Below are positions 37,794 through 62,430 of a DNA stretch of 64,000 bases, one piece after another. The stretch comes from Nocardiopsis listeri NBRC 13360 (GTDB lineage Bacteria; Actinomycetota; Actinomycetes; Streptosporangiales; Streptosporangiaceae). The DNA is taken from assembly GCF_001570765.1 (NCBI RefSeq), contig NZ_BCSH01000008.1, positions 62,001 through 126,000 on the forward strand, read 5' to 3'. The position numbers were made by a program, and so were the translations under genes. How positions within the stretch are numbered: position 1 is the stretch's first letter; every line of letters begins with the position of its first letter. Under the pieces are notes generated by a model, which made no database searches, was not told the DNA's origin, and saw only the letters and a list, made by a program, of their open reading frames with translations.

Positions 37794-38726
37794 GAGCGTG
37801 TTTGAGAAGGGGTAACGGTCCGGGCACTTCCCCCACGCTGCTGCTGTCAGGCCGCAAGCATGAGCCCCATGCCGCGACGCCCGACCTACCCCTCTGACCT
37901 GACCGATGAGCAGTGGGCCCTGATCGAGCCCCTGCTCCCACCGGCCAACACCGGAGGCCGACCCGAGAAGCACCCCCGCCGCGACGTGGTGGACGCGATC
38001 TTGTACGTGGTGCGTACCGGCTGTTCCTGGCGGCACCTGCCCGTGGACTTCCCACCCTGGCAAACCGTGTACTGGTACTTCTCCCGCTGGGAGGAAGCCA
38101 CGGTCACCGAGCAGGTCATGGCCGTGCTGCGCCGTCGGGTGCGCACCGCTCAAGGACGCGGGGGCGAGCCCTCGGCGGGGATCATCGACTCCCAGAGCGT
38201 CAAGGGCGCCGACACCGTCGGCCAGGGGACCAGGGGCTATGACGCGGGCAAGAAGGTCAACGGCCGTAAGAGGTTCATCGTCACCGACACCCTGGGGTTG
38301 TTGCTGGTGGTGTGCGTGATGGCTGCCTCGGTTCAGGACCGGGACGGGGCCAGGACCACCTTGTTGAGTCTGTACCTGTGCACGCCGGTGCGGTTCGTGT
38401 TCGCTGACGCGGGGTTCGCGGGAAAGCTGGTGGCCTGGGCGGAGAGGTTCGTGGCCACGACTGTGCATATCGTGCGCAAGGCTCCTGGCCAGGTGGGGTT
38501 CGCGGTGATCCCGCGGCGGTGGGTGGTGGAGCGTTCGCTGGCGTGGTTGACCGCTCACCGTCGTCTGGCACGGGACTACGAGCGCGACCCGGCGGTGTCC
38601 GAGGCGATGGTGCGCTGGGCCGCGATCGGTCAGATGGCCCGACGCCTCGCCCGAGGACGAGATACCGTCCGTCAGCGTGCTTGGACGAGCGAAGACCTCA
38701 TTTCCTGACCCTTCTCAAACACGCTC
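37794..38726 (+). mobile_element. IS5-family (IS402-type) element B, intact
   Basis: A 933-bp element with perfect terminal inverted repeats GAGCGTGTTTGAGAAGGG at both ends. It is flanked by the 3-bp direct repeat TAA (37791-37793 and 38727-38729), the TNA-type target duplication of this group. It holds one intact transposase gene. The matching target duplication means the insertion is fairly recent. Confidence 0.9.
37860..38708 (+). CDS. IS5-family transposase
   Basis: A 282-residue protein with the DUF4096-type N-terminus (YPSDLTDEQWALIEPLLPPA, GRPEKHPRRDVVDAILYVVR) and a complete DDE centre: IIDSQSVKGAD (Asp110), FADAGFAGKL (Asp183) and WVVERSLAWL (Glu224). It cuts and joins the ends of element B. 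A second ATG three codons in is an alternative start. No frameshift is needed, unlike some members of this family. Confidence 0.92.
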   Translation: MSPMPRRPTYPSDLTDEQWALIEPLLPPANTGGRPEKHPRRDVVDAILYVVRTGCSWRHLPVDFPPWQTVYWYFSRWEEATVTEQVMAVLRRRVRTAQGRGGEPSAGIIDSQSVKGADTVGQGTRGYDAGKKVNGRKRFIVTDTLGLLLVVCVMAASVQDRDGARTTLLSLYLCTPVRFVFADAGFAGKLVAWAERFVATTVHIVRKAPGQVGFAVIPRRWVVERSLAWLTAHRRLARDYERDPAVSEAMVRWAAIGQMARRLARGRDTVRQRAWTSEDLIS

Positions 38727-39016: not shown

Positions 39017-40069
39017 ATGACCAACCCCGAGGCGAACCCGGACACCCACGTGTGCGTCGATGGTGGCCTTCCGGGGCCGTGGGCCGAGCGGGAGGGTGGA
39101 GCTCCCGTCGAGCTCATCACCGCCCGCGACGTGCCCCTGGGCGGACCGCGTGCCATGAACGTGCGCCGTACCCTGCCGCAACGGCAGCGTTCGTTGATCG
39201 GCGCGTGGTGCTTCATCGACCACTACGGGCCGGACGACGTATCGGCCAGCGGCGGTATGGACGTGGCTCCGCACCCGCACACGGGACTTCAGACGCTGAG
39301 CTGGCTGTTCGAAGGTACCGTCGCCCACATCGACTCCGGTGGCAACAGCGCCCACGTCCTTCCCGGTGAGATGAACCTGATGACCGCCGGCGCCGGCATC
39401 TGCCATTCCCAGACCTCCACGGAGGACACCGACCGACTCCACGGGGTGCAGCTCTGGATCGCCCTCCCCGAGGAGGCGCGCAACCGGCCGGGCCGCGACT
39501 TCGAGCACTTCGTCCCCGAGCCCGTCACCTTCGACGGCGGTTCCGCGCTCGTCTTCCTCGGTTCACTGCTGGGTTCACAGTCCCCGGTGAGCATGTATTC
39601 GCCGCTGGTGGGGGCCGAGATCAGGCTCGATCCCGGCGCGGCCCTCGACCTGACGGTCGATTCCGGATTCGAGCACGGCCTGCTGGTGGACACGGGCGAG
39701 GCCATCACGCTGGAGGGCGTGCGCGTGCCCAAGGACGCCGTGGGTTACACCGGTGTGGGGAGCCGGAACCTGCGTATCGCCAACGGCGGTGACGAGCCGG
39801 CCAGGCTCGTGCTCGTGGGAGGAGCCCCCTTCACCGAAGAGCTCGTCATGTGGTGGAACTTCCTGGGCCGTACCACCGAGGAGATCCGGCAGTACAGAGA
39901 GGAATGGCAGAACCACGGTGAGCGGTTCGGTCGCGTCGAAGGCTACGTGGGTCACGGCGGCCCGGGAAAGAACCGCGAAGGGATGGGGTGGATCCCCGCC
40001 CCTGAACTGCCACCGGTCAGGATGAGGCCGAGGAAGAACCCACCGCCCCACGCACAGATCCAGGACTGA
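39017..40069 (+). CDS. Pirin family protein
   Basis: A 350-residue bicupin. The metal site of the first cupin is seen in DVAPHPHTGLQTLSWLFEG and in GAGICHSQTSTED with LHGVQLW. GGAAGGA precedes the ATG. Pirins bind iron; some act as quercetinases, others as cofactors or redox sensors, and which applies cannot be told. It is followed by a GNAT and an AhpD-like gene in the same direction, suggesting a stress-related group. The 287-bp gap between IS element B and this gene has no gene that I can see. Confidence 0.88.
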   Translation: MTNPEANPDTHVCVDGGLPGPWAEREGGAPVELITARDVPLGGPRAMNVRRTLPQRQRSLIGAWCFIDHYGPDDVSASGGMDVAPHPHTGLQTLSWLFEGTVAHIDSGGNSAHVLPGEMNLMTAGAGICHSQTSTEDTDRLHGVQLWIALPEEARNRPGRDFEHFVPEPVTFDGGSALVFLGSLLGSQSPVSMYSPLVGAEIRLDPGAALDLTVDSGFEHGLLVDTGEAITLEGVRVPKDAVGYTGVGSRNLRIANGGDEPARLVLVGGAPFTEELVMWWNFLGRTTEEIRQYREEWQNHGERFGRVEGYVGHGGPGKNREGMGWIPAPELPPVRMRPRKNPPPHAQIQD

Positions 40070-40159
40070 ACCACCCCGGTCACCCACCCCGCCGGGCCGA
40101 GGCGCCGTCGTGCCAGCCATCGACCGGACCGGCACGATCCCCATGGAGAGGTCTTCGCC

Positions 40160-40552
40160 ATGACCGAGCCACAGACCGACAAAACCGGCGCTGTCGTGCA
40201 TATCGCCCTTGACGAAACGCGCGCCATCAGCGCCTATACCGTGACCCTGGAGGACGGCACCCTCGCGGGCCGCGCGGACTTCATCGACCCGCCGGAAGGC
40301 GAGGACGAACGCGTCTTCTTCCACACCGAGGTCTCACCGGAGTTCGGTGGGCGGGGTCTGGGCGGACTCGTGATGCGCCAGGCCCTGGCCGACAGCGTCC
40401 GCAGGAACATCACCGTCGTACCCGTGTGCCCACTGTTCGCCAAGTACCCGAAGGAGCACGGCGAGGAGTACACGGCCCAGGGCGGCAGGTTCCGCAAGCC
40501 GAGGCCCGCGGACCTGCAGCTGGTCCAGAAGACGACCGAGGAGCAGGCATGA
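40160..40552 (+). CDS. GNAT-type N-acetyltransferase (PF14542-like)
   Basis: A 130-residue protein. The acetyl-CoA loop reads VSPEFGGRGLGGLVMRQALA and is followed by VVPVCPLFAKYPKEH, the pattern of the small YidJ/GNAT-like proteins. GGAGAGG precedes the ATG. Its stop overlaps the start of the AhpD-like gene (ATGA), so the two are translationally coupled. The acceptor is unknown. Confidence 0.85.
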   Translation: MTEPQTDKTGAVVHIALDETRAISAYTVTLEDGTLAGRADFIDPPEGEDERVFFHTEVSPEFGGRGLGGLVMRQALADSVRRNITVVPVCPLFAKYPKEHGEEYTAQGGRFRKPRPADLQLVQKTTEEQA

Positions 40553-41007
40553 GCGCGGAGCGTCCCTACATCGACAAGGAACACCCCACGGTGTACAAGG
40601 CGCTCGGCAAGGCGGCCGTGGCCTCCCGGGCCGCTTCGCACGAGGCGAGTCTGGGCGATGACACCATCGAGCTGATCAACGTCCGGGTGTCCCAGATCAA
40701 CGGGTGCCCGACCTGCCTGAGCATCCACGTTCCCAAGGCCCGCAAGGCCGGGGTGAAGCAGAGCGTCCTGGACGTGCTGCCGTCCTGGCGTGAGGCCGGC
40801 GTGTTCACCGACATGCAAAAGGCCGCTCTGCTCCTGGCGGAGTCCCTCACCGTCATCGACCCCACCGTCGATCGGCAGGCGATCAACGCCCGTGCGGCCG
40901 CCCACCTGACCACCGCCCAGATCTCCGCGGTGGAGTGGACGACCACGCTCATCAACGCGTTCAACCGGGTCTCGATCGCCAGTGGTCATCCCGTGATCAC
41001 ACGATAG
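40549..41007 (+). CDS. AhpD-like carboxymuconolactone decarboxylase family protein
   Basis: A 152-residue helical protein with the AhpD-type redox centre INGCPTCLSIH (Cys53, Cys56, His60). Such proteins reduce peroxides or peroxiredoxins in antioxidant defence. It is coupled to the GNAT gene and ends the pirin-GNAT-AhpD series. A leftward gene converges 284 bp further on. Confidence 0.88.
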   Translation: MSAERPYIDKEHPTVYKALGKAAVASRAASHEASLGDDTIELINVRVSQINGCPTCLSIHVPKARKAGVKQSVLDVLPSWREAGVFTDMQKAALLLAESLTVIDPTVDRQAINARAAAHLTTAQISAVEWTTTLINAFNRVSIASGHPVITR

Positions 41008-41290: not shown

Positions 41291-42625
41291 TCAGTGCGGT
41301 GACGGCGGCCGTTCCAGACCCAAATGGCCCCGAAGCGTGTCCGCCTCGTACTCGCGACGGAACAGCCCTCGCTGTTGCAGGACGGGAACCACATGGTCCA
41401 CGAAGTCCTCGATCCCGCCCGGCAACGACGGCGGCATGAGGTTGAACCCGTCCGCGCCACCGTTCTCGTACCACCGGGTCATCCGATCGGCGATCTGCTC
41501 GGGCGTTCCGACCATGGTGCAGTGTCCGCCGCCGGCGGCCAGACGGCCCAGCAGTTGCCGCACCGTGGGCCGTTCGGAGTCGATGATGCGCAAGATGGTC
41601 TCGTAGCGTCCCTTGGGACCGGTGAACTCCTCCAGTGACGGCAGCTCGGGAACCGGCGCGTCCAACTCCCAGTCAGAACAGTCCTGTTCGGTGAACAGGC
41701 CCAGCTGCCGCAATGACTCCTCGGTCGGCAGCAATTCGTCCAGTTCGCGCTGCTTGGCTCGGGCCTCCCGTTCGGTGGAACCGACGTAGGTGACCAGTCC
41801 GGGCATGATGGCGACGGACCGAGGGTCGCGGCCCGCCTGCCGGATCCGCGCCTTGACGTCGCCGTAGTAGTCCTGGGCGCTGGGCAGGTCATAGGCCACG
41901 GAGTAGATGGCCTCGGCGCGGCGGGCCGCCAGCGTGCGTCCCTGCTCCGACGAGCCCGCTTGGAACAGCACCGGGTTGCCCTGTACCGGGCGCGGCACGT
42001 TCAACGGTCCGTCGACCTGGAAGTGCTCTCCCCGGTGGCCGATGGGGCGCACCAGGTCCGGGTCCGCGAAGACCCCGTCCCGGTCATACTGGAAGGCCTT
42101 GTCGCTCCAGGAGTCCCACAGCCCCAGCACCACCTCCACGAACTCCTCTGCTCGCGCGTAGCGCTCCTGGTGCGCGGGCATCCGCTCGTATCCGTGGTTG
42201 CGGGCCTCGGTGTCGAACATGGACGTCACCACGTTCCAGCCCACTCGTCCTCCGCTGATGTGGTCCAGGGAGGCCAGCAGGCGTGCCGCGTGGAAGGGCG
42301 TGTAGAACGTGCTGGAGACGGTGCTGACCAGACCGATGTGCCGGGTGGCCCGGCTCATAGCCGCCAGAGTGGTCAATGGTTCGAGGAACCACCACGGGCC
42401 ACTGGCGACGTCGCCTGTGGCGTGGCCGTCGGCGAAGAACACCGCGTCCAGGCGGCCGCGTTCGGCGGTGCGGGCCAGTCCTTCGAAGTAGGTGATGTCA
42501 CCGATCCGTTCGGCCGGCGAGTCGGGGTGACGCCAGGCGGCCTTGTGGTGACCGCAGCCGAAGATGAACAGGTTGAGGTGCATCCGGCGGTCGGGATCCT
42601 GGTCGGGCGCGGGAGCGGAGGCCAT
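41291..42625 (-). CDS. NtaA/SnaA/DszA-family FMN-dependent monooxygenase
   Basis: A 444-residue bacterial-luciferase-like protein of the NtaA/SoxA branch: LNLFIFGCGHHKAAWRHPDS at the start, EGLARTAERGRLDAVFFADG, SRATRHIGLVSTVSSTFYTP, HISGGRVGWNVVTSMFDTEA, and GSSEQGRTLAARRAEAIY. These enzymes use FMNH2 and O2 to oxidise small organic substrates and need a separate flavin reductase. The ATG overlaps the SDR stop (TGATG), so both are translated as an operon under the TPP riboswitch. A substrate related to thiamine or its breakdown is inferred from the riboswitch only. Confidence 0.88.
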   Translation of the reverse strand: MASAPAPDQDPDRRMHLNLFIFGCGHHKAAWRHPDSPAERIGDITYFEGLARTAERGRLDAVFFADGHATGDVASGPWWFLEPLTTLAAMSRATRHIGLVSTVSSTFYTPFHAARLLASLDHISGGRVGWNVVTSMFDTEARNHGYERMPAHQERYARAEEFVEVVLGLWDSWSDKAFQYDRDGVFADPDLVRPIGHRGEHFQVDGPLNVPRPVQGNPVLFQAGSSEQGRTLAARRAEAIYSVAYDLPSAQDYYGDVKARIRQAGRDPRSVAIMPGLVTYVGSTEREARAKQRELDELLPTEESLRQLGLFTEQDCSDWELDAPVPELPSLEEFTGPKGRYETILRIIDSERPTVRQLLGRLAAGGGHCTMVGTPEQIADRMTRWYENGGADGFNLMPPSLPGGIEDFVDHVVPVLQQRGLFRREYEADTLRGHLGLERPPSPH

Positions 42626-43407
42626 CAATTCATCACCAGCCCGCCGTCGACGACCAGATTCTGACCGGTGACCGCGCGCGCCCAAGGGGAGGCGAAGTAC
42701 AGGGCCGCGTCGGCGAACTCGGCAGGGGTGGTGACCCGGCGCAGCGGTGTGGAGGAGGCGATCATGTCGAAGACGCCCTCGGGGGTGGCGGAGCTGGCGT
42801 CGGTGGTGCGCAGCAGACCACCGGAGACCATGTTGACGGTGATGCCGTCGGGGCCCAGGTCATGGGCGAGCGTACGGGTCAGCGACAACAGCGCCGCCTT
42901 GGCCGCGGTGTAGTCGTGGTAGGGGACCACCGGGTGCTGGAACAGGTTGGTGCCCACGTTGATGACCCGACCGAACCCCTGGCCGCGCATGGAGACCAGG
43001 GCGGCTTGGACGGTGTTCAGTGCGCCGTGGACGGTACCGCTGAACTGCTGGTCGAGGTGTTGTGGGGTGAGCGTGTCGGCGTGAGGCCGTGCGTCGCCGT
43101 TGAAGGAGAAGTCGGCGAGCGCGTTGTTGACGACGGTGGAGATGGAGGAGCCGAAATGGCCCTCCGCGGCTTGGACCATCGCGGCGACCTGTTCGGGATC
43201 GCGCACGTCCGCTCGCACGGCCAAGGCGCGATCGGGGTGGGTGGCGGTGAGCTCGCCGGCTGCTTCGGCACTGTGGAGGTAGTTGATCACCACACGGGCG
43301 CCTTGCCCCAGGAAGGCCTGGACCAGCCGGGACCCGAGCCCTCGGGCCCCGCCGGTGACGACGACCGTCTGCTGGTCGATGGGGAGCGCGGTGCGGGAAG
43401 AACTCAT
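42625..43407 (-). CDS. SDR family oxidoreductase under a TPP riboswitch
   Basis: A 260-residue short-chain dehydrogenase: VVVTGGARGLGSRL (cofactor loop), VNNALADFSFNG in the NNAG position, and YHDYTAAKAAL with the catalytic Tyr and Lys. AAAGG stands seven bases before the ATG at 43407. It is first in a two-gene operon with the flavin monooxygenase. The TPP riboswitch 63 bp upstream means it should be shut off when thiamine pyrophosphate is plentiful. The substrate is unknown; a thiamine salvage or precursor step is inferred. Confidence 0.85.
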   Translation of the reverse strand: MSSSRTALPIDQQTVVVTGGARGLGSRLVQAFLGQGARVVINYLHSAEAAGELTATHPDRALAVRADVRDPEQVAAMVQAAEGHFGSSISTVVNNALADFSFNGDARPHADTLTPQHLDQQFSGTVHGALNTVQAALVSMRGQGFGRVINVGTNLFQHPVVPYHDYTAAKAALLSLTRTLAHDLGPDGITVNMVSGGLLRTTDASSATPEGVFDMIASSTPLRRVTTPAEFADAALYFASPWARAVTGQNLVVDGGLVMN

Positions 43408-43469
43408 CGGTGGCCTTTCTGACATGGGCGAAGGCGTCCCTTCGACCACCGATACCACCGGCCGTGTAC

Positions 43470-43553
43470 GGACATCCCTTCGCCGGTATGACCCGGATCA
43501 GGTTCGACGGGTGTTATCTCAGCCCGAATCAGTGGATTCAGGGCACCCCGTGT
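43470..43553 (-). promoter_or_regulatory. TPP riboswitch (THI element)
   Basis: On the minus strand the conserved blocks appear in order and spacing: GGGGTGCCC, then GGGCTGAGATAACACCC, then GAACCTGATCCGGGTC, then ATACCGGCGAAGGGA. These are the P1/P2 start, the pyrimidine-sensing CUGAGA loop, the P4/P5 part and the closing GCGAAGGGA. It lies 63 bp upstream of the SDR start. No clear terminator hairpin follows, so control of translation start is likely, as usual in actinomycetes. The remaining sequence 43554-43804 has no gene that I can support. Confidence 0.93.
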
Positions 43554-43804
43554 CACTGCCGATCAAGGTAGCCCATAGGCACCGTCTCGGGCCACCGGCC
43601 GGCACCTCGCTCGTCTCCCGCTCGACGTCAGAGGCGAGCAGCGTCCTCTCGCTATGACCGCTGAGGACAAGATTTCCGCCCTCGCTGAGCTCGAACGCGT
43701 TGAAGATGGCCTGGGGACGTAGCGTCGAGCAACTTCACCGGTTCGGATTCGTTCGTCTTCTCAGCGAACGCGACCCGGCCGCGCGGGCAGCCACCCCTCC
43801 CCGC

Positions 43805-44518
43805 TCAGGAGGCCGAACGCAGCAGAGGCGGTGTGAGCAACGAAGAGCCTCCTTTGCGGTACAGGGCGGCCGGACGCCCCGCCCGCTGGGCGCGCTGCCC
43901 CCCGCTGGGTTCCACGAACCCCTCCGCCTTGGTGACCTTGCGTCGGAAGTTGCTGGGATCCAGTTCACGCCCCCAGATCACTTCGTAGACCTCCCTTAGC
44001 TCGCTGAGGGTGAACGGTTCGGGGCAGAAGACCGTGGCGACGGTGGTGTACTCCAGCTTCTCCCGAACGCGCTCCAGCGCATCGCCGAGAATGCGGTCGT
44101 GGTCGAAGGCCAGGAGGAGGGGACCTTCCAGGATCTCCCCCACCGGCACCCAGTGGGCATGGGCCGCGTCACTTCCTCCCACGGCTTCGGGCAGGTCCGC
44201 CCCCAAGGCCAGGTAGGCGATGGTGACGACCCGCCCCCGCGGGTCACGGCCGGGATCGCCGAAGGCACCGAGTTGTTCCAGGTGAAGCCGAGAGCCGTCG
44301 ATCCCGGTCTCCTCCAAGAGTTCGCGCCGAGCACCTTGGTCGAGGGTCTCCTGTCTTCGGACCCTCCCGCCGGGCAAGGCCGAGCACCCTTGGAACGGCT
44401 CCTCCCCTCTCTCGATCAACAGGACCATCAACGCCCCGTTCCTGATGGTGAAGATGGCCAGGTCCACCGTGACCAGGGACAACCCCACGTCAACGGCTCG
44501 CGCCAAGCGCTCGTCCAC
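43805..44518 (-). CDS. NrtR-like regulator: NUDIX domain plus winged helix
   Basis: A 237-residue protein. A NUDIX domain with a complete box (GGRVRRQETLDQGARRELLE then ETGI) is followed by the NrtR-type winged helix (PFTLSELREVYEVIWGRELD, NFRRKVTKAEGFVE). NrtR proteins sense ADP-ribose or related NAD metabolites. I choose GTG at 44518, after GGGGGG, because an ATG at 44563 would place the first operator repeat inside the gene. It is divergent from the membrane protein-PNP operon, with two operator-like repeats between. Its NUDIX residues are intact, so it may also hydrolyse its ligand. Confidence 0.75.
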   Translation of the reverse strand: MDERLARAVDVGLSLVTVDLAIFTIRNGALMVLLIERGEEPFQGCSALPGGRVRRQETLDQGARRELLEETGIDGSRLHLEQLGAFGDPGRDPRGRVVTIAYLALGADLPEAVGGSDAAHAHWVPVGEILEGPLLLAFDHDRILGDALERVREKLEYTTVATVFCPEPFTLSELREVYEVIWGRELDPSNFRRKVTKAEGFVEPSGGQRAQRAGRPAALYRKGGSSLLTPPLLRSAS

Positions 44519-44533
44519 TACGCCCCCCTTAAA

Positions 44534-44584
44534 GGTCATCTTGACTTTAATCATCCGATCCACTTATGGTCATCCCGACCTTAA
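44534..44584. promoter_or_regulatory. Pair of operator-like repeats for the NrtR-like regulator
   Basis: GGTCATCTTGACTTTAA (44534-44550) and GGTCATCCCGACCTTAA (44568-44584) are direct repeats (14 of 17 matches) 34 bp apart, about three helical turns. Each is itself an imperfect inverted repeat. They fill the gap between the divergent NrtR-like gene and the membrane protein operon. Confidence 0.65.
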
Positions 44585-44607
44585 CTGGATCGGCACAGGA
44601 GAAGTGC

Positions 44608-46380
44608 ATGTCCATCACCGCTCACGTCTCTCCATCCCCTGTCCTTCGCCCTCCTCCGGAACAGGAGGAACCGACCGGGGCCACCCGTCACCTCTGTGCC
44701 GGTGTGCACATCGACGAGGACTTCCGAGACCTCGTCATCAAACAGGTGTGTACGGCCCCTTCACGACGCGCGGCCCCCTCCTACGAATTCGACCTCGTTC
44801 CGGTGATGCGCCACGCGTGGTTGTCCCTGCACCTGACCTCGTTGTCGAGGTCGGGGTTGCTCACCGCCCTCGCCGCGCCCTACTTCTGGGGGTTGACGGT
44901 GACGACCCTCTTGGTCGCCGGTGGATACGTACTTCTCGTACTCCTTGACCACGCCTGGCGGATCTCCAAGGAGCTCACACGACCCGAAGAGCCCTTACTG
45001 ACGAAGAAGAGGCGCAAGCGTCGACCGAAGTTGCCTTCCAGGTCCAGCTGGAAGTACGGGGAGGAGAGCAAACGTCTCAAGAACACTGGCGCGTTCGCCC
45101 TGGTCCTTGCCCTCGCCATGATGGTCCTGGCCTTCTCCCATCCCATTCAGGGAACTCTGGCCCTCTACCTGGGCTGCGCCGTCGCCCTCCTCACCGCGAT
45201 CGTCGGTGGTCTGCGCCAGGCGTGCATCAACCACGCTCACAAGGCCACCGCTCTCAGACCCAAGCGCCTCTCCCATCGGGAGAAGGTCGTCGACGAGCAG
45301 CAGAAGCATCCCTGTGTGGTCTATCAGCGCCCCGCCCACAAGAAGGACGGCGAGGACGAAGATGCGGGTGTGTTCACGCTCTTCGGTGAGGAATCACCCT
45401 TCATCGGAGCGGGGGAACTGATCCACCAGTGGAATCCACCCATGAGTGTCCAACTCCTGCGCAAGGGAAGCGACGACAAACCCCTGCACGAACGGGAACA
45501 CCGGCACCCGCCCTTCAAGCCGCACGAACTGATGGACCACCTGCGCGCGGCCGTCGCCGACCTTCGGGAGGACCATGAGAACGTCCGTCTTCCGGCGCAG
45601 GTACGCGACCGTATCTACGTCTCCCATTCGGACGTGTCCACTGACCGCTCCATCCTGCGGGAATCGGTGGATCCGGTCGCGATGCGCCGGATCATCGACC
45701 GACAGGACTCCGCGCACCAGCACTTCCTCGAAGTGAGCGTCCCCGACGCGGGAGGAGAGCTGGTCGCCACGGTGCTGCTCCAGGTAAGGGTGCGTGGCCG
45801 AACGCTGAGCCTGGCGTTCGCGGCCTGCGCACTGACCCGTAATCCGGACGACTTCCGTAAGGCGGAAGAGTTCGGCCAGCACGGAAAACGGGCCATCGTC
45901 AGTGCCGCTTGGCACGACCTGTTCCGCCTCCCTCGCCACATCCGTTCACTGGGGCGCATCACCCGTTACCCGTTCTACCTGGCCAAGGCCCTCTCCGGCC
46001 TCCTACACCGGGCCTTGGTGCTCCGCGGCATCGACTTCACCCTCGTTCCTCGACGCAATATCGGGATCGGCAGTCGAATCAGCGTTCGCCAGGAATTGGC
46101 GGAGGACTGGAGCAAGGTCCAACTCGACAAGACCACGCTTCTCGGCCACATCAAGAACGTCGAACAGCGGCTGCTCAAAGCCACCAGCGACTTCCTCGAC
46201 TCTCACGGTGTCGACGTCTCCGACTTCGATGATCGCGCGCTACAGATCATCAACAGCGGCATCGTCAACATGGGCGGAACCAACGACTTCACCAACACCG
46301 CGGTCGGCGACCAGGCGCACCAGCAGACGCAGAACCCTCCTTCCACCCCCAATGACTCACAGAACGGGAAAGCCGCATGA
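44608..46380 (+). CDS. Membrane protein with a C-terminal amyloid-like signalling motif
   Basis: A 590-residue protein; ATG after AGGAG. Three hydrophobic segments lie at about 84-113, 161-177 and 181-201, separated by a highly basic loop (KKRRKRRPK). The remaining 390 residues form a soluble domain I do not recognise. At residues 549-570 is NSGIVNMGGTNDFTNTAVGD followed by QA, nearly identical to the N-terminus of the next gene's product. The start codon of that gene overlaps this stop. I infer a membrane sensor that signals to the phosphorylase-like effector through the shared motif. Confidence 0.65.
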   Translation: MSITAHVSPSPVLRPPPEQEEPTGATRHLCAGVHIDEDFRDLVIKQVCTAPSRRAAPSYEFDLVPVMRHAWLSLHLTSLSRSGLLTALAAPYFWGLTVTTLLVAGGYVLLVLLDHAWRISKELTRPEEPLLTKKRRKRRPKLPSRSSWKYGEESKRLKNTGAFALVLALAMMVLAFSHPIQGTLALYLGCAVALLTAIVGGLRQACINHAHKATALRPKRLSHREKVVDEQQKHPCVVYQRPAHKKDGEDEDAGVFTLFGEESPFIGAGELIHQWNPPMSVQLLRKGSDDKPLHEREHRHPPFKPHELMDHLRAAVADLREDHENVRLPAQVRDRIYVSHSDVSTDRSILRESVDPVAMRRIIDRQDSAHQHFLEVSVPDAGGELVATVLLQVRVRGRTLSLAFAACALTRNPDDFRKAEEFGQHGKRAIVSAAWHDLFRLPRHIRSLGRITRYPFYLAKALSGLLHRALVLRGIDFTLVPRRNIGIGSRISVRQELAEDWSKVQLDKTTLLGHIKNVEQRLLKATSDFLDSHGVDVSDFDDRALQIINSGIVNMGGTNDFTNTAVGDQAHQQTQNPPSTPNDSQNGKAA

Positions 46381-46466
46381 GCCTCCACCAACCTCCGAAC
46401 AACAGTGGCATCGTCAACATGGGCGGAACCAACAGCTTCACCAACACCGCGGTCGGCGACCAGGCG
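46252..46466 (+). repeat. 66-bp direct repeat encoding the shared motif in two adjacent genes
   Basis: The blocks 46252-46317 and 46401-46466 are almost identical at the DNA level and encode the motif SGIVNMGGTN-x-FTNTAVGDQA at the end of the membrane protein and the start of the phosphorylase-like protein. The reading frames differ between the two genes but each repeat is read in its own correct frame. Confidence 0.9.
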
Positions 46467-47324
46467 AAGATGATCACGCCCTCGGACCCCACACGGCCCT
46501 CCCAGGTACGCACCTCCTCGGCGCACTCCGAGTCCGACCAACGGAAGGACGTCGGAATCGTCACGATCCTGCCCGTGGAGACACGAGCGATCCTCGACGA
46601 ACTGGGACTGGAGCGGCCCCGCAAACAAGAAGGCCTGTTCTTCAGCGCCGGTGACGTCTCCACCGAAAGTGGTACGGCGAGCGTGGTGGCCACCCAGACC
46701 CTCGGTCCCGGGCAACGCTCGGTGATGTCGGCACTGGACCATCTGCGCCACCATTTCTCCCCACGTCTGTGGGTCCTGGTCGGCATCGGAGGCGGACTTG
46801 GGAGCTCCCCCAGCCGCGCCGGCGGTGGCCGTATCGGTGACGTCATCGTCTCGACCCGGATCGTCTACTACGACTCACGCAAGATCACGGCCGGCGACCG
46901 CGTTCAGCGCCGTGGTGAGGAACGGCAGGCACCGGCCCGCGTCGTCCACGCGGCGAACGCCTACTTCACCGACCGGGGAGAGCCGGCGGTGATCCGCGGC
47001 CGTGTCGACGGGCACCGTAAGCGCAGCTTCGAGGTCCACCATGGCCTGATCGGTTCAGGGGAGGCCGTGATCGCCCACGAAGACGCCGAAGAGCGGCAGT
47101 GGCTGAAGCACTACAACGACAAGGTCATGGCCGTGGACATGGAGTCGGGCGGGCTCAGCCAGTTCTGGCAGGAGAACTCGGTGCGCGATGAGGGCAACCC
47201 GGACTGGGTCGTGGTTCGGGGCATCTCGGACGGAGCGGACGCGCAGAAGGACGACGACGCCCATGCTCTGGCCGCGCACAACGCGGCGCACGTCGTCCAC
47301 GAACTGCTCCCGTATCTACTCTGA
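46377..47324 (+). CDS. Nucleoside phosphorylase-superfamily effector with N-terminal signalling motif
   Basis: A 315-residue protein whose ATG overlaps the preceding stop. Residues 9-30 are the shared motif (NSGIVNMGGTNSFTNTAVGD then QA). The rest is a complete PNP/MTAN-type domain: VGIVTILPVETRAILDELG, VLVGIGGGLG, GSGEAVIAHED, the nucleoside-binding AVDMESGGLS and VRGISDGADAQKDDD. Such domains cleave nucleosides or related nucleotides. PNP domains with short N-terminal amyloid motifs are known effectors in bacterial and fungal NLR immunity. The target nucleotide is unknown. Confidence 0.8.
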   Translation: MSLHQPPNNSGIVNMGGTNSFTNTAVGDQAKMITPSDPTRPSQVRTSSAHSESDQRKDVGIVTILPVETRAILDELGLERPRKQEGLFFSAGDVSTESGTASVVATQTLGPGQRSVMSALDHLRHHFSPRLWVLVGIGGGLGSSPSRAGGGRIGDVIVSTRIVYYDSRKITAGDRVQRRGEERQAPARVVHAANAYFTDRGEPAVIRGRVDGHRKRSFEVHHGLIGSGEAVIAHEDAEERQWLKHYNDKVMAVDMESGGLSQFWQENSVRDEGNPDWVVVRGISDGADAQKDDDAHALAAHNAAHVVHELLPYLL

Positions 47325-61938: not shown

Positions 61939-62430
61939 TTAGAGCAGGGGTGAGGCCAGGTGGTGGGCCAGGGCTCCGGCGGCGGTGGCCAGGGCGTAGC
62001 CGCACAGGCGCCACCCCACCCGTGAGTGGCGGCGACGGGGTTTGCGGTGGCTGTGCGGGCGGCGGGGCCGACGCGGAAGTGGTGGGCGCGGCGGCCGGGG
62101 CGGGGGCGGGCCGTCGTCCGGGGCCGGCCTGGGGCGCGGGATCGTGGGCCGCGGCCGGTATTGCGGAGCAGGTGTGGGTTTCCACGGGCTCTCAGGACGC
62201 TCGGAGAGTTCAGGAACTTCGTGGGCGCGACGCTCGTCTTCGGTCATGCGGGTGGAGTACAGGGGTGCCCAGAGTGGGAGGACCCCGTGGGGGTTGTCGG
62301 CCATCTGGGCCAGGAGACGTTGTTCGCGGGCGAGAGCGGTCGTAGTCGGGGCGTGGGGGCGAGAGAAACGCCGGCCGCGGGGTGCGTCCAGGACCGCTCG
62401 GAGTTCGGCCGAGACCGGTCCCGGGCTCAT
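61939..62430 (-). CDS. Pro/Arg-rich protein coupled to the ATP-binding protein gene
   Basis: A 163-residue basic protein. The N-terminal 80 residues (SAELRAVLDAPRGRRFSRPH, REQRLLAQMADNPHGVLPLW) may fold; residues about 90-135 are a Pro/Arg-rich disordered stretch, and the end is weakly hydrophobic (LCGYALATAAGALAHHLAS). Its start overlaps the stop of the ATP-binding protein gene (ATGA), so the two are made together. I do not recognise it; small proteins of this type often follow such genes in actinomycetes. Confidence 0.6.
   Translation of the reverse strand: MSPGPVSAELRAVLDAPRGRRFSRPHAPTTTALAREQRLLAQMADNPHGVLPLWAPLYSTRMTEDERRAHEVPELSERPESPWKPTPAPQYRPRPTIPRPRPAPDDGPPPPRPPRPPLPRRPRRPHSHRKPRRRHSRVGWRLCGYALATAAGALAHHLASPLL

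Follow-up and report, generated by a model that had tools for sequence, protein, structure and literature searches.

A window of 64,000 nucleotides from Nocardiopsis listeri NBRC 13360 (positions 62,001 to 126,000 of contig NZ_BCSH01000008.1) carries, on its minus strand, a two-gene operon that is headed by a thiamin pyrophosphate (TPP) riboswitch and encodes a reductase of the short-chain dehydrogenase/reductase (SDR) family and a flavin mononucleotide (FMN)-dependent monooxygenase. The link of this gene pair to thiamin is strong. Tentatively, as a reading that we consider quite possible though still short of probable, we propose that the operon serves, under the control of TPP, to salvage the pyrimidine half of thiamin; in this scheme the monooxygenase would produce an aldehyde that the SDR would reduce to 4-amino-5-hydroxymethyl-2-methylpyrimidine (HMP). 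Along the minus strand the order is aptamer, SDR gene and monooxygenase gene, with the following features:

43458..43560, minus strand: TPP riboswitch aptamer (RF00059) in the 5' leader of the operon; cmscan 69.2 bits, complete over model positions 1-105
43408..43457, minus strand: leader stretch from the aptamer to the SDR start, with a Shine-Dalgarno-like AGAAAGG at 43420-43414, read from the sequence
42625..43407, minus strand: SDR-family reductase/dehydrogenase, first gene; NF006393/PRK08642, Pfam PF13561/PF00106
41291..42625, minus strand: luciferase-like FMN-dependent monooxygenase of the NtaA/SnaA/DszA (DmoA) family, second gene; TIGR03860, PF00296

The aptamer (43560-43458) matches the full length of RF00059 well above its gathering threshold (54.3 bits; E 1.6e-11) and is the sole Rfam match at that threshold within the window. 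On sequence grounds it is an ordinary member of its class: the blocks CUGAGA, GAACCUGAUC and GCGAAGGGA are kept in 12 aligned Nocardiopsis leaders, in one of which U replaces A after GCG in an aptamer block. About 62 nucleotides separate the aptamer core from the ATG at 43407, the likely start of an SDR open reading frame (ORF) that spans 43458-42625 and has alternative starts at ATG 43425 and GTG 43458; the SDR stop and the monooxygenase ATG have one base in common (TGATG, 42627-42623). A preliminary description of this stretch had placed a complete riboswitch 63 bp upstream of an SDR gene overlapping an NtaA/SnaA-type gene, and had recognized no known thiamine gene. These statements are borne out, the last of them within the window, where tblastn (E 1e-8) with ThiC, ThiD, ThiE, ThiG, ThiO, TenA, YkoE and ThiY queries found no thi genes.

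Across 40 Nocardiopsis genomes, 13 close SDR copies were found in 12 genomes, at 77–100% identity to the query, and every one of the 13 has a TPP riboswitch above the family cut-off directly upstream; each of the 40 genomes holds three to six TPP matches. The monooxygenase follows the SDR in 10 of the 12 SDR-bearing genomes. Damaged monooxygenase copies occur in the genomes G015 and G023 (loci L043 and L045): in G023 the frame is interrupted beside an intact-looking SDR, and in G015, which has two copies of the pair, the second monooxygenase ends after about 141 residues, again with an intact-looking SDR. G019 carries the TPP riboswitch and SDR on one contig and, on another, a TPP riboswitch and the monooxygenase with a small SDR remnant, so each gene lies under a TPP riboswitch even when the two are apart. 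The distribution of the pair needs at least five changes on a thiO-S-G tree of 39 Nocardiopsis genomes, G018 (970 contigs, thiG not found) being left out. The genome of N. listeri contains four further TPP riboswitches, located before a thiO-thiS-thiG-like operon (thiS and thiG read by eye), a YkoE-type energy-coupling factor (ECF) transporter, thiD and thiC, the match before thiC scoring below the cut-off. With these four other TPP riboswitch sites and its thiO/S/G, thiD and thiC set, the organism therefore appears to be prototrophic for thiamin and to carry this operon as an addition under TPP control.

Beyond the genus, a scan of a genome collection with the SDR alignment yielded at least 593 confirmed relatives, the best 80 of which were taken as SDR loci, picked by the SDR alone and irrespective of any RNA. 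Being the best 80 of at least 593, they represent the nearest relatives within the SDR family, and the counts apply to these. TPP riboswitches were sought at these loci with a covariance model derived from 11 TPP riboswitches of the present study, and the monooxygenase by tblastn. The loci belong mainly to Actinomycetota and Pseudomonadota, the closest of them to Nocardiopsis species. The monooxygenase adjoins the SDR in 68 of the 80 (projected gaps of -36 to +152 bases), and a TPP riboswitch is present in all 68 of these pair loci, directly upstream of the SDR in 61 and, in the other seven (Achromobacter and Schauerella), only on the divergent thiV-like side. The preliminary description had pointed to actinomycetes as the place to look for TPP riboswitches followed by SDR and NtaA-family genes; the arrangement is found there, and in Pseudomonadota as well. 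Chance or artefact was rejected as an explanation, given the riboswitch at every close SDR copy in the 40 Nocardiopsis genomes and at all 68 pair loci.

Four of the 12 SDR loci without an adjacent monooxygenase have a TPP riboswitch. Genome-wide, no true copy of the monooxygenase was found behind three of these four (L160, L171 and L136, the last a metagenome-assembled genome that is possibly incomplete) or in G455, which also has a TPP riboswitch and SDR. The SDR can therefore do without the monooxygenase; such solo loci fit a role of the SDR as the last, shared step. An even sample of 394 genomes of the class held four SDR relatives outside the genus, at 63–68% identity, among them one complete riboswitch-SDR-monooxygenase locus and one riboswitch-SDR locus.

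The SDR scores 420.4 bits against NF006393/PRK08642 (cut-off 292), whose annotation name, '3-oxoacyl-ACP reductase', is assigned from sequence. It contains the glycine-rich motif TGGARGLG and the catalytic Tyr166 and Lys170 (numbered from ATG 43407), both residues being invariant in the 68 clade rows of an SDR tree from which 17 near-duplicates among the 80 loci were left out. The classical Ser position is occupied by Thr153, and by Thr in 68 of 68 clade rows, with Ser in four of six outgroup rows; judged from the sequence, this is a conservative replacement, and the protein exceeds the curated family cut-off regardless. The structure model of the SDR is moderate (pLDDT 75.6, with low values in the active-site loops), and a Foldseek search with it returned general SDRs only, with no hint of a substrate.

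The monooxygenase scores 546.6 bits against TIGR03860 (cut-off 279.7). Its best sequence match in the PDB is YtnJ/CmoJ (1yw1/6ask, 334 bits), followed by nitrilotriacetate (NTA) monooxygenase and, third, DszA/BdsA, and further by ethylenediaminetetraacetate (EDTA) monooxygenase, DmoA, an alkane monooxygenase, a hexachlorobenzene oxidative dehalogenase and riboflavin lyase. The structure predicted for the monooxygenase (pLDDT 88.9) has the triosephosphate isomerase (TIM)-barrel fold of group C monooxygenases, with BdsA (Z 46.8), CmoJ (45.9), NTA monooxygenase (45.8) and RcaE (44.6) as fold matches. CmoJ (YtnJ), the S-alkylcysteine sulfoxide monooxygenase of Bacillus subtilis, forms an aldehyde through a flavin-dependent oxidative dealkylation (PMC10863075). 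It shares about 40% identity with the monooxygenase studied here and is among the tied best in fold (root mean square deviation 3.7 over 423 aligned residues); its role is in the salvage of cysteine, where it breaks a C-S bond. To our knowledge, CmoJ has neither an SDR partner nor TPP control. NtaA, EmoA and the riboflavin lyase RcaE belong to the same family and fold, at 33–41% identity, and carry out oxidative C-N cleavage at N-CH2 groups, RcaE on a vitamin. Their substrates are chelators or riboflavin and the systems are catabolic; we know of no TPP control in any of them.

In a tree of 51 rows, the TPP-linked monooxygenases fall into a single, fully supported clade (100/100); the tree comprised 29 of the 66 long-enough matches from L110-L189, together with L105, L109, the window protein and 19 paralogues; L189 was dropped from the alignment, having a stop within its coordinates. 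None of the 19 paralogues has a TPP riboswitch that reaches the gathering score, and many adjoin genes of ATP-binding cassette (ABC) transporters, as judged by eye. Treating the two proteins simply as general members of their families proved too loose, since the next SDR matches reach at most 41% identity among the matches listed for the sampled genomes, and the next monooxygenase matches within the order, to which the 19 paralogues belong, at most 56%. One locus of the set, L142 (NZ_JADHDY010000010.1), is labelled Sporosarcina beigongshangi, has 66% GC and a monooxygenase that groups with Arthrobacter, and is probably a contaminant contig.

The names of both families, '3-oxoacyl-ACP reductase' and 'NtaA/DmoA family FMN-dependent monooxygenase', together with the lack of a thi gene in the window, would suit an operon unrelated to thiamin chemistry, active for instance in fatty-acid or xenobiotic oxidation, whose TPP control is secondary and reflects, for example, co-regulation with a TPP-dependent enzyme. 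We hold this to be highly implausible, because the riboswitch accompanies all 68 pair loci, most of which adjoin vitamer transporters or thi genes, and because the TPP-linked monooxygenases stand apart as one clade from the paralogues that lack the riboswitch.

Several genes around the pair also point to thiamin. The commonest third gene, in 48 of the 68 pair loci, encodes a sodium:solute symporter (PF00474 in the one member tested), which we call ThiV-like; in 47 of these 48 cases a TPP riboswitch lies no more than 300 bases from the gene's own 5' end. ThiV is presented as a panF-homologous transporter under THI-element control (PMC2211319), and the ThiV of SAR11 as the likely HMP importer (PMC11452348). 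In Cryobacterium tagatosivorans (L153), an NMT1/THI5-type ABC system resembling ThiXYZ lies behind a TPP riboswitch. A Micrococcaceae locus (L151) has a YkoE-type ECF system behind one, recognized by an ATPase gene and a match to PF09819, which we take to be YkoE; the YkoE-type protein of N. listeri, used as a tblastn query (1e-8), matched nothing there. YkoEDC and ThiXYZ take up pyrimidine vitamers. Three unrelated transporter families linked to pyrimidine vitamers thus adjoin the pair, the ThiV-like one very often and the ThiXYZ-like and YkoEDC-like ones at one locus each. Thiamin biosynthesis genes also occur: thiE, thiO and thiG adjoin the pair in Cryobacterium sp. Y50 (L117), and thiG lies directly downstream of the monooxygenase in two Marinobacter loci (L128 and L133).

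A further pattern was observed for TenA (thiaminase II). PF03070, the TenA family, is missing in eight of the 40 Nocardiopsis genomes (G000, G004, G005, G015, G017, G019, G033 and G036; G019 is 85% complete and the other seven 98–100%), all of them among the 12 pair genomes, and present in all 28 that are pair-free; no PF03070 gene was found in the N. listeri genome, nor in an E. coli genome used as a control. Eleven of the 12 pair genomes lack one PF03070 type, scoring about 92–106 bits, which each of the other 28 genomes carries (partially in G009); types were separated by score and range, and the one member tested does not reach the cut-off of the thiaminase II equivalog. With kinship left out of account, Fisher tests gave 6.4e-6 for all PF03070 and 5.2e-9 for the one type, and independent contrasts for that type on the 39-genome tree gave four in the same direction, none opposite and one tie. 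Neither product of the operon matches PF03070, so that any likeness to TenA is a proposed functional analogy.

The patchy distribution of the pair on the genus tree and the genome with two copies could also be accounted for if the task of the pair were to detoxify or degrade damaged thiamin or an antivitamin of thiamin, such as a methoxy- or oxo-pyrimidine analogue, and so to protect TPP enzymes from poisoning and the riboswitch from a false signal. Such antivitamins, bacimethrin and methoxythiamin, are released in nature (PMC12345177). A TPP-repressed detoxifier would, however, be off when TPP is plentiful, and this account leaves unexplained both the absence of TenA only in pair-bearing Nocardiopsis and the adjoining vitamer importers. 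We therefore regard it as improbable, and as less likely than salvage of the pyrimidine.

We favour pyrimidine-side salvage because of the ThiV-like, ThiXYZ-like and YkoEDC-like neighbours, the TenA pattern and the chemistry of the monooxygenase family. When TPP is scarce, the riboswitch would let the SDR and the monooxygenase be made, and a vitamer would first be imported by the neighbouring transporter. The FMN-dependent monooxygenase would then oxidize the CH2 beside the leaving group (CH2-N or CH2-X) of a 4-amino-2-methylpyrimidine vitamer, the likeliest substrates being the breakdown products N-formyl-4-amino-5-aminomethyl-2-methylpyrimidine (FAMP) and 4-amino-5-aminomethyl-2-methylpyrimidine (AmMP), or possibly a thiamin-like molecule. 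The hydroxylated intermediate would collapse to 4-amino-5-formyl-2-methylpyrimidine and an amine or amide, and the SDR, presumably with reduced nicotinamide adenine dinucleotide phosphate (NADPH), would reduce the pyrimidine aldehyde to HMP, which ThiD and ThiE would carry into thiamin. Such a route, oxidation followed by reduction, would stand as an alternative beside the hydrolytic one of YlmB and TenA, with the same proposed outcome, HMP from AmMP or FAMP, reached by unrelated proteins, an oxygenase and a reductase here against hydrolases there.

In its most specific form, the proposal is a third way, this one oxidative, of salvaging the pyrimidine of vitamin B1, in which FAMP would yield the aldehyde and formamide (or AmMP the aldehyde and ammonia) and a dedicated SDR, with Thr at the catalytic Ser position, would give HMP, bypassing YlmB and TenA, coupled to ThiV, ThiXYZ or YkoEDC importers and spread horizontally through Actinomycetota and Pseudomonadota; that all these parts hold jointly seems to us unlikely. 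The preliminary description had suggested an uncharacterized branch of thiamine metabolism that makes or salvages a precursor, or oxidizes a breakdown product. The branch itself is now well supported by the conserved TPP link, the vitamer transporters and thi neighbours and the association with missing TenA in Nocardiopsis; among those options, salvage of a pyrimidine breakdown product is the one favoured.

Several observations weigh against pyrimidine salvage, or against parts of it. The first concern the leader. TPP riboswitches usually repress, and repression of this operon by TPP would follow from that habit of the class, the expression platform being unclear. In the minimum free energy fold, the Shine-Dalgarno sequence and the AUG are enclosed in a hairpin that is a possible translational expression platform; its stability is no greater than that of shuffled sequences (z-score -0.40), and its arms, by eye, are not kept across all 12 aligned leaders. 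As to conservation, the remaining two of the four class-sample SDR relatives have no TPP riboswitch at gathering score, and eight of the 80 SDR loci have neither an adjacent monooxygenase nor a TPP riboswitch. These eight (L155, L169, L172, L173, L176, L178, L183 and L188) are mostly from xanthomonads, with SDR copies of two Achromobacter that have a monooxygenase elsewhere; they fall in the same SDR clade and possibly represent a different use of the same reductase. The two-gene operon also contains no flavin reductase, and the rest of the genome was not searched for one.

The TenA pattern has its own limits. Phylogeny-aware p values range from 0.0625 to 0.25 over the ways of pairing and, with too few events, cannot reach 0.05. 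Outside Nocardiopsis, the tests for TenA and thiC covered the genomes behind 38 of the 80 loci, of which 36 have the pair and two have the SDR alone. PF03070 is present in 28 of the 38, including 27 of the 36 pair genomes (26 with strong matches). Replacement of TenA was accordingly rejected as a general rule and kept as a pattern of Nocardiopsis.

The pattern of thiC was likewise dropped as support. This gene is missing in two of the 40 Nocardiopsis genomes, G004 and G033, both 99–100% complete, pair-bearing and TenA-less (Fisher 0.085), and 15 of the 38 genomes elsewhere have no intact thiC (13 without a match, two with fragments or stops), six of these also lacking TenA (five with the pair, one with the SDR only); across the class, thiC is missing in 68 of 118 genomes that are at least 90% complete. 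The genomes without thiC and TenA would suit a pair that circumvents ThiC by making HMP, or a pyrimidine related to it, de novo from some other metabolite. Yet thiC is so often missing in the class anyway, and it is kept in 23 of the 38 genomes and in 10 of the 12 Nocardiopsis pair genomes. One oxygenation and one reduction are, moreover, too few to build the ring from common metabolites, and we judge de novo synthesis very unlikely.

The remaining objections concern the half of thiamin on which the pair would act. CmoJ and DszA/BdsA, which rank first and third among the PDB sequence matches of the monooxygenase, break C-S bonds and not C-N bonds, so the substrate could be a sulfur-containing (thiazole) compound, and the thiG genes beside the pair in the two Marinobacter loci and in Cryobacterium sp. 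Y50, there with thiE and thiO, are readable in the same sense. On the thiazole side, the monooxygenase would oxidize or cleave a sulfur-containing fragment, such as an oxidized or carboxylated thiazole (cHET), and the SDR would handle a side-chain alcohol or aldehyde, feeding the thiazole branch. Against this stand the transporters of pyrimidine-vitamer type that adjoin most pair loci, the Nocardiopsis TenA pattern, which concerns pyrimidine salvage, and the retention of thiG in 39 of 40 Nocardiopsis genomes, the exception (G018) having no pair. A thiazole role is rather unlikely in our view, less so than detoxification and more so than pyrimidine salvage.

Compared with the known THI-element regulon (RF00059, with ThiV, ThiXYZ and YkoEDC as HMP transporters), the RNA class is the same and the pair often adjoins genes of the regulon; the regulated enzymes match no family of thiamin biosynthesis or salvage among the matches listed. 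Rodionov and co-workers reportedly noted in 2002, behind a THI element, an SDR named 'oarX' that bears the annotation 3-oxoacyl-ACP reductase, and the preliminary description had likewise mentioned an SDR-like gene of unknown role in THI-element surveys. The SDR of the window is possibly this same 'oarX'; the monooxygenase partner, the TenA pattern and the breadth of distribution are not known to have been part of that work. No use of oarX in the sense of a THI-element SDR was found among the papers listed by the literature searches, nor any description of the SDR-monooxygenase pair or of a reaction for it. The words 'oxidoreductase' and 'monooxygenase' are absent from the main text of a 2013 survey of RNA regulons (PMC3766115). 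The riboswitch and both enzyme families are thus known, and what appears new is the uncharacterized enzyme pair, with its proposed TPP-controlled salvage of a precursor.

In soils and waters, fragments of vitamin B1 are scarce and shared, and many bacteria depend on salvaging them. If the pair is indeed an oxidative route of pyrimidine salvage, bacteria scored by their ThiC and TenA content would be mis-scored for the B1 fragments they can use, and a defined role in vitamin metabolism could be assigned to members of two large, generic enzyme families. Should the proposed reaction prove wrong, the riboswitch at all 68 pair loci still marks a conserved gap in a pathway that has been studied well, and simple enzyme assays could tell the hypotheses on the pair apart.

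Several other genes near the pair were recorded. FmdA-like (formamidase/acetamidase, by eye) and FmdB-like genes lie near it in two sister Nocardiopsis, N. xinjiangensis (L048:4209-5792 and L112) and N. kunsanensis (L044:667-2241 and L111), and an FmdA gene lies near the lone SDR of G547 (L108:1728-3334). The FmdA-like neighbour weakly fits N-dealkylation of FAMP, because formamide would be the second product.

In the window, a protein of 604 amino acids without a Pfam or NCBIfam match and a PNP_UDP_1 protein are encoded at 44566-47324 on the plus strand, both with a GIVNMGGTN-x-F-TNTAVGDQ motif, and together they look like a nucleosidase-type conflict module; ORFs similar to them by eye occur near the SDR-monooxygenase pair in several Nocardiopsis (L040, L043 and L045). 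An NrtR-like gene (43805-44563) also recurs near the pair in several members of the genus. Downstream of the pair, at 39017-41007 on the plus strand, lie genes for a pirin, a small GNAT-like protein (by eye) and an AhpD-like protein, a set that recurs beside the pair in several Nocardiopsis, at L040 and L041 and partly at L042 and L046. An IS5-family transposase adjoins this region (37860-38708, plus strand) and may bear on the mobility of the pair, and a fragment similar to it by eye is found at L040:10396-10698, at a contig end of G017.

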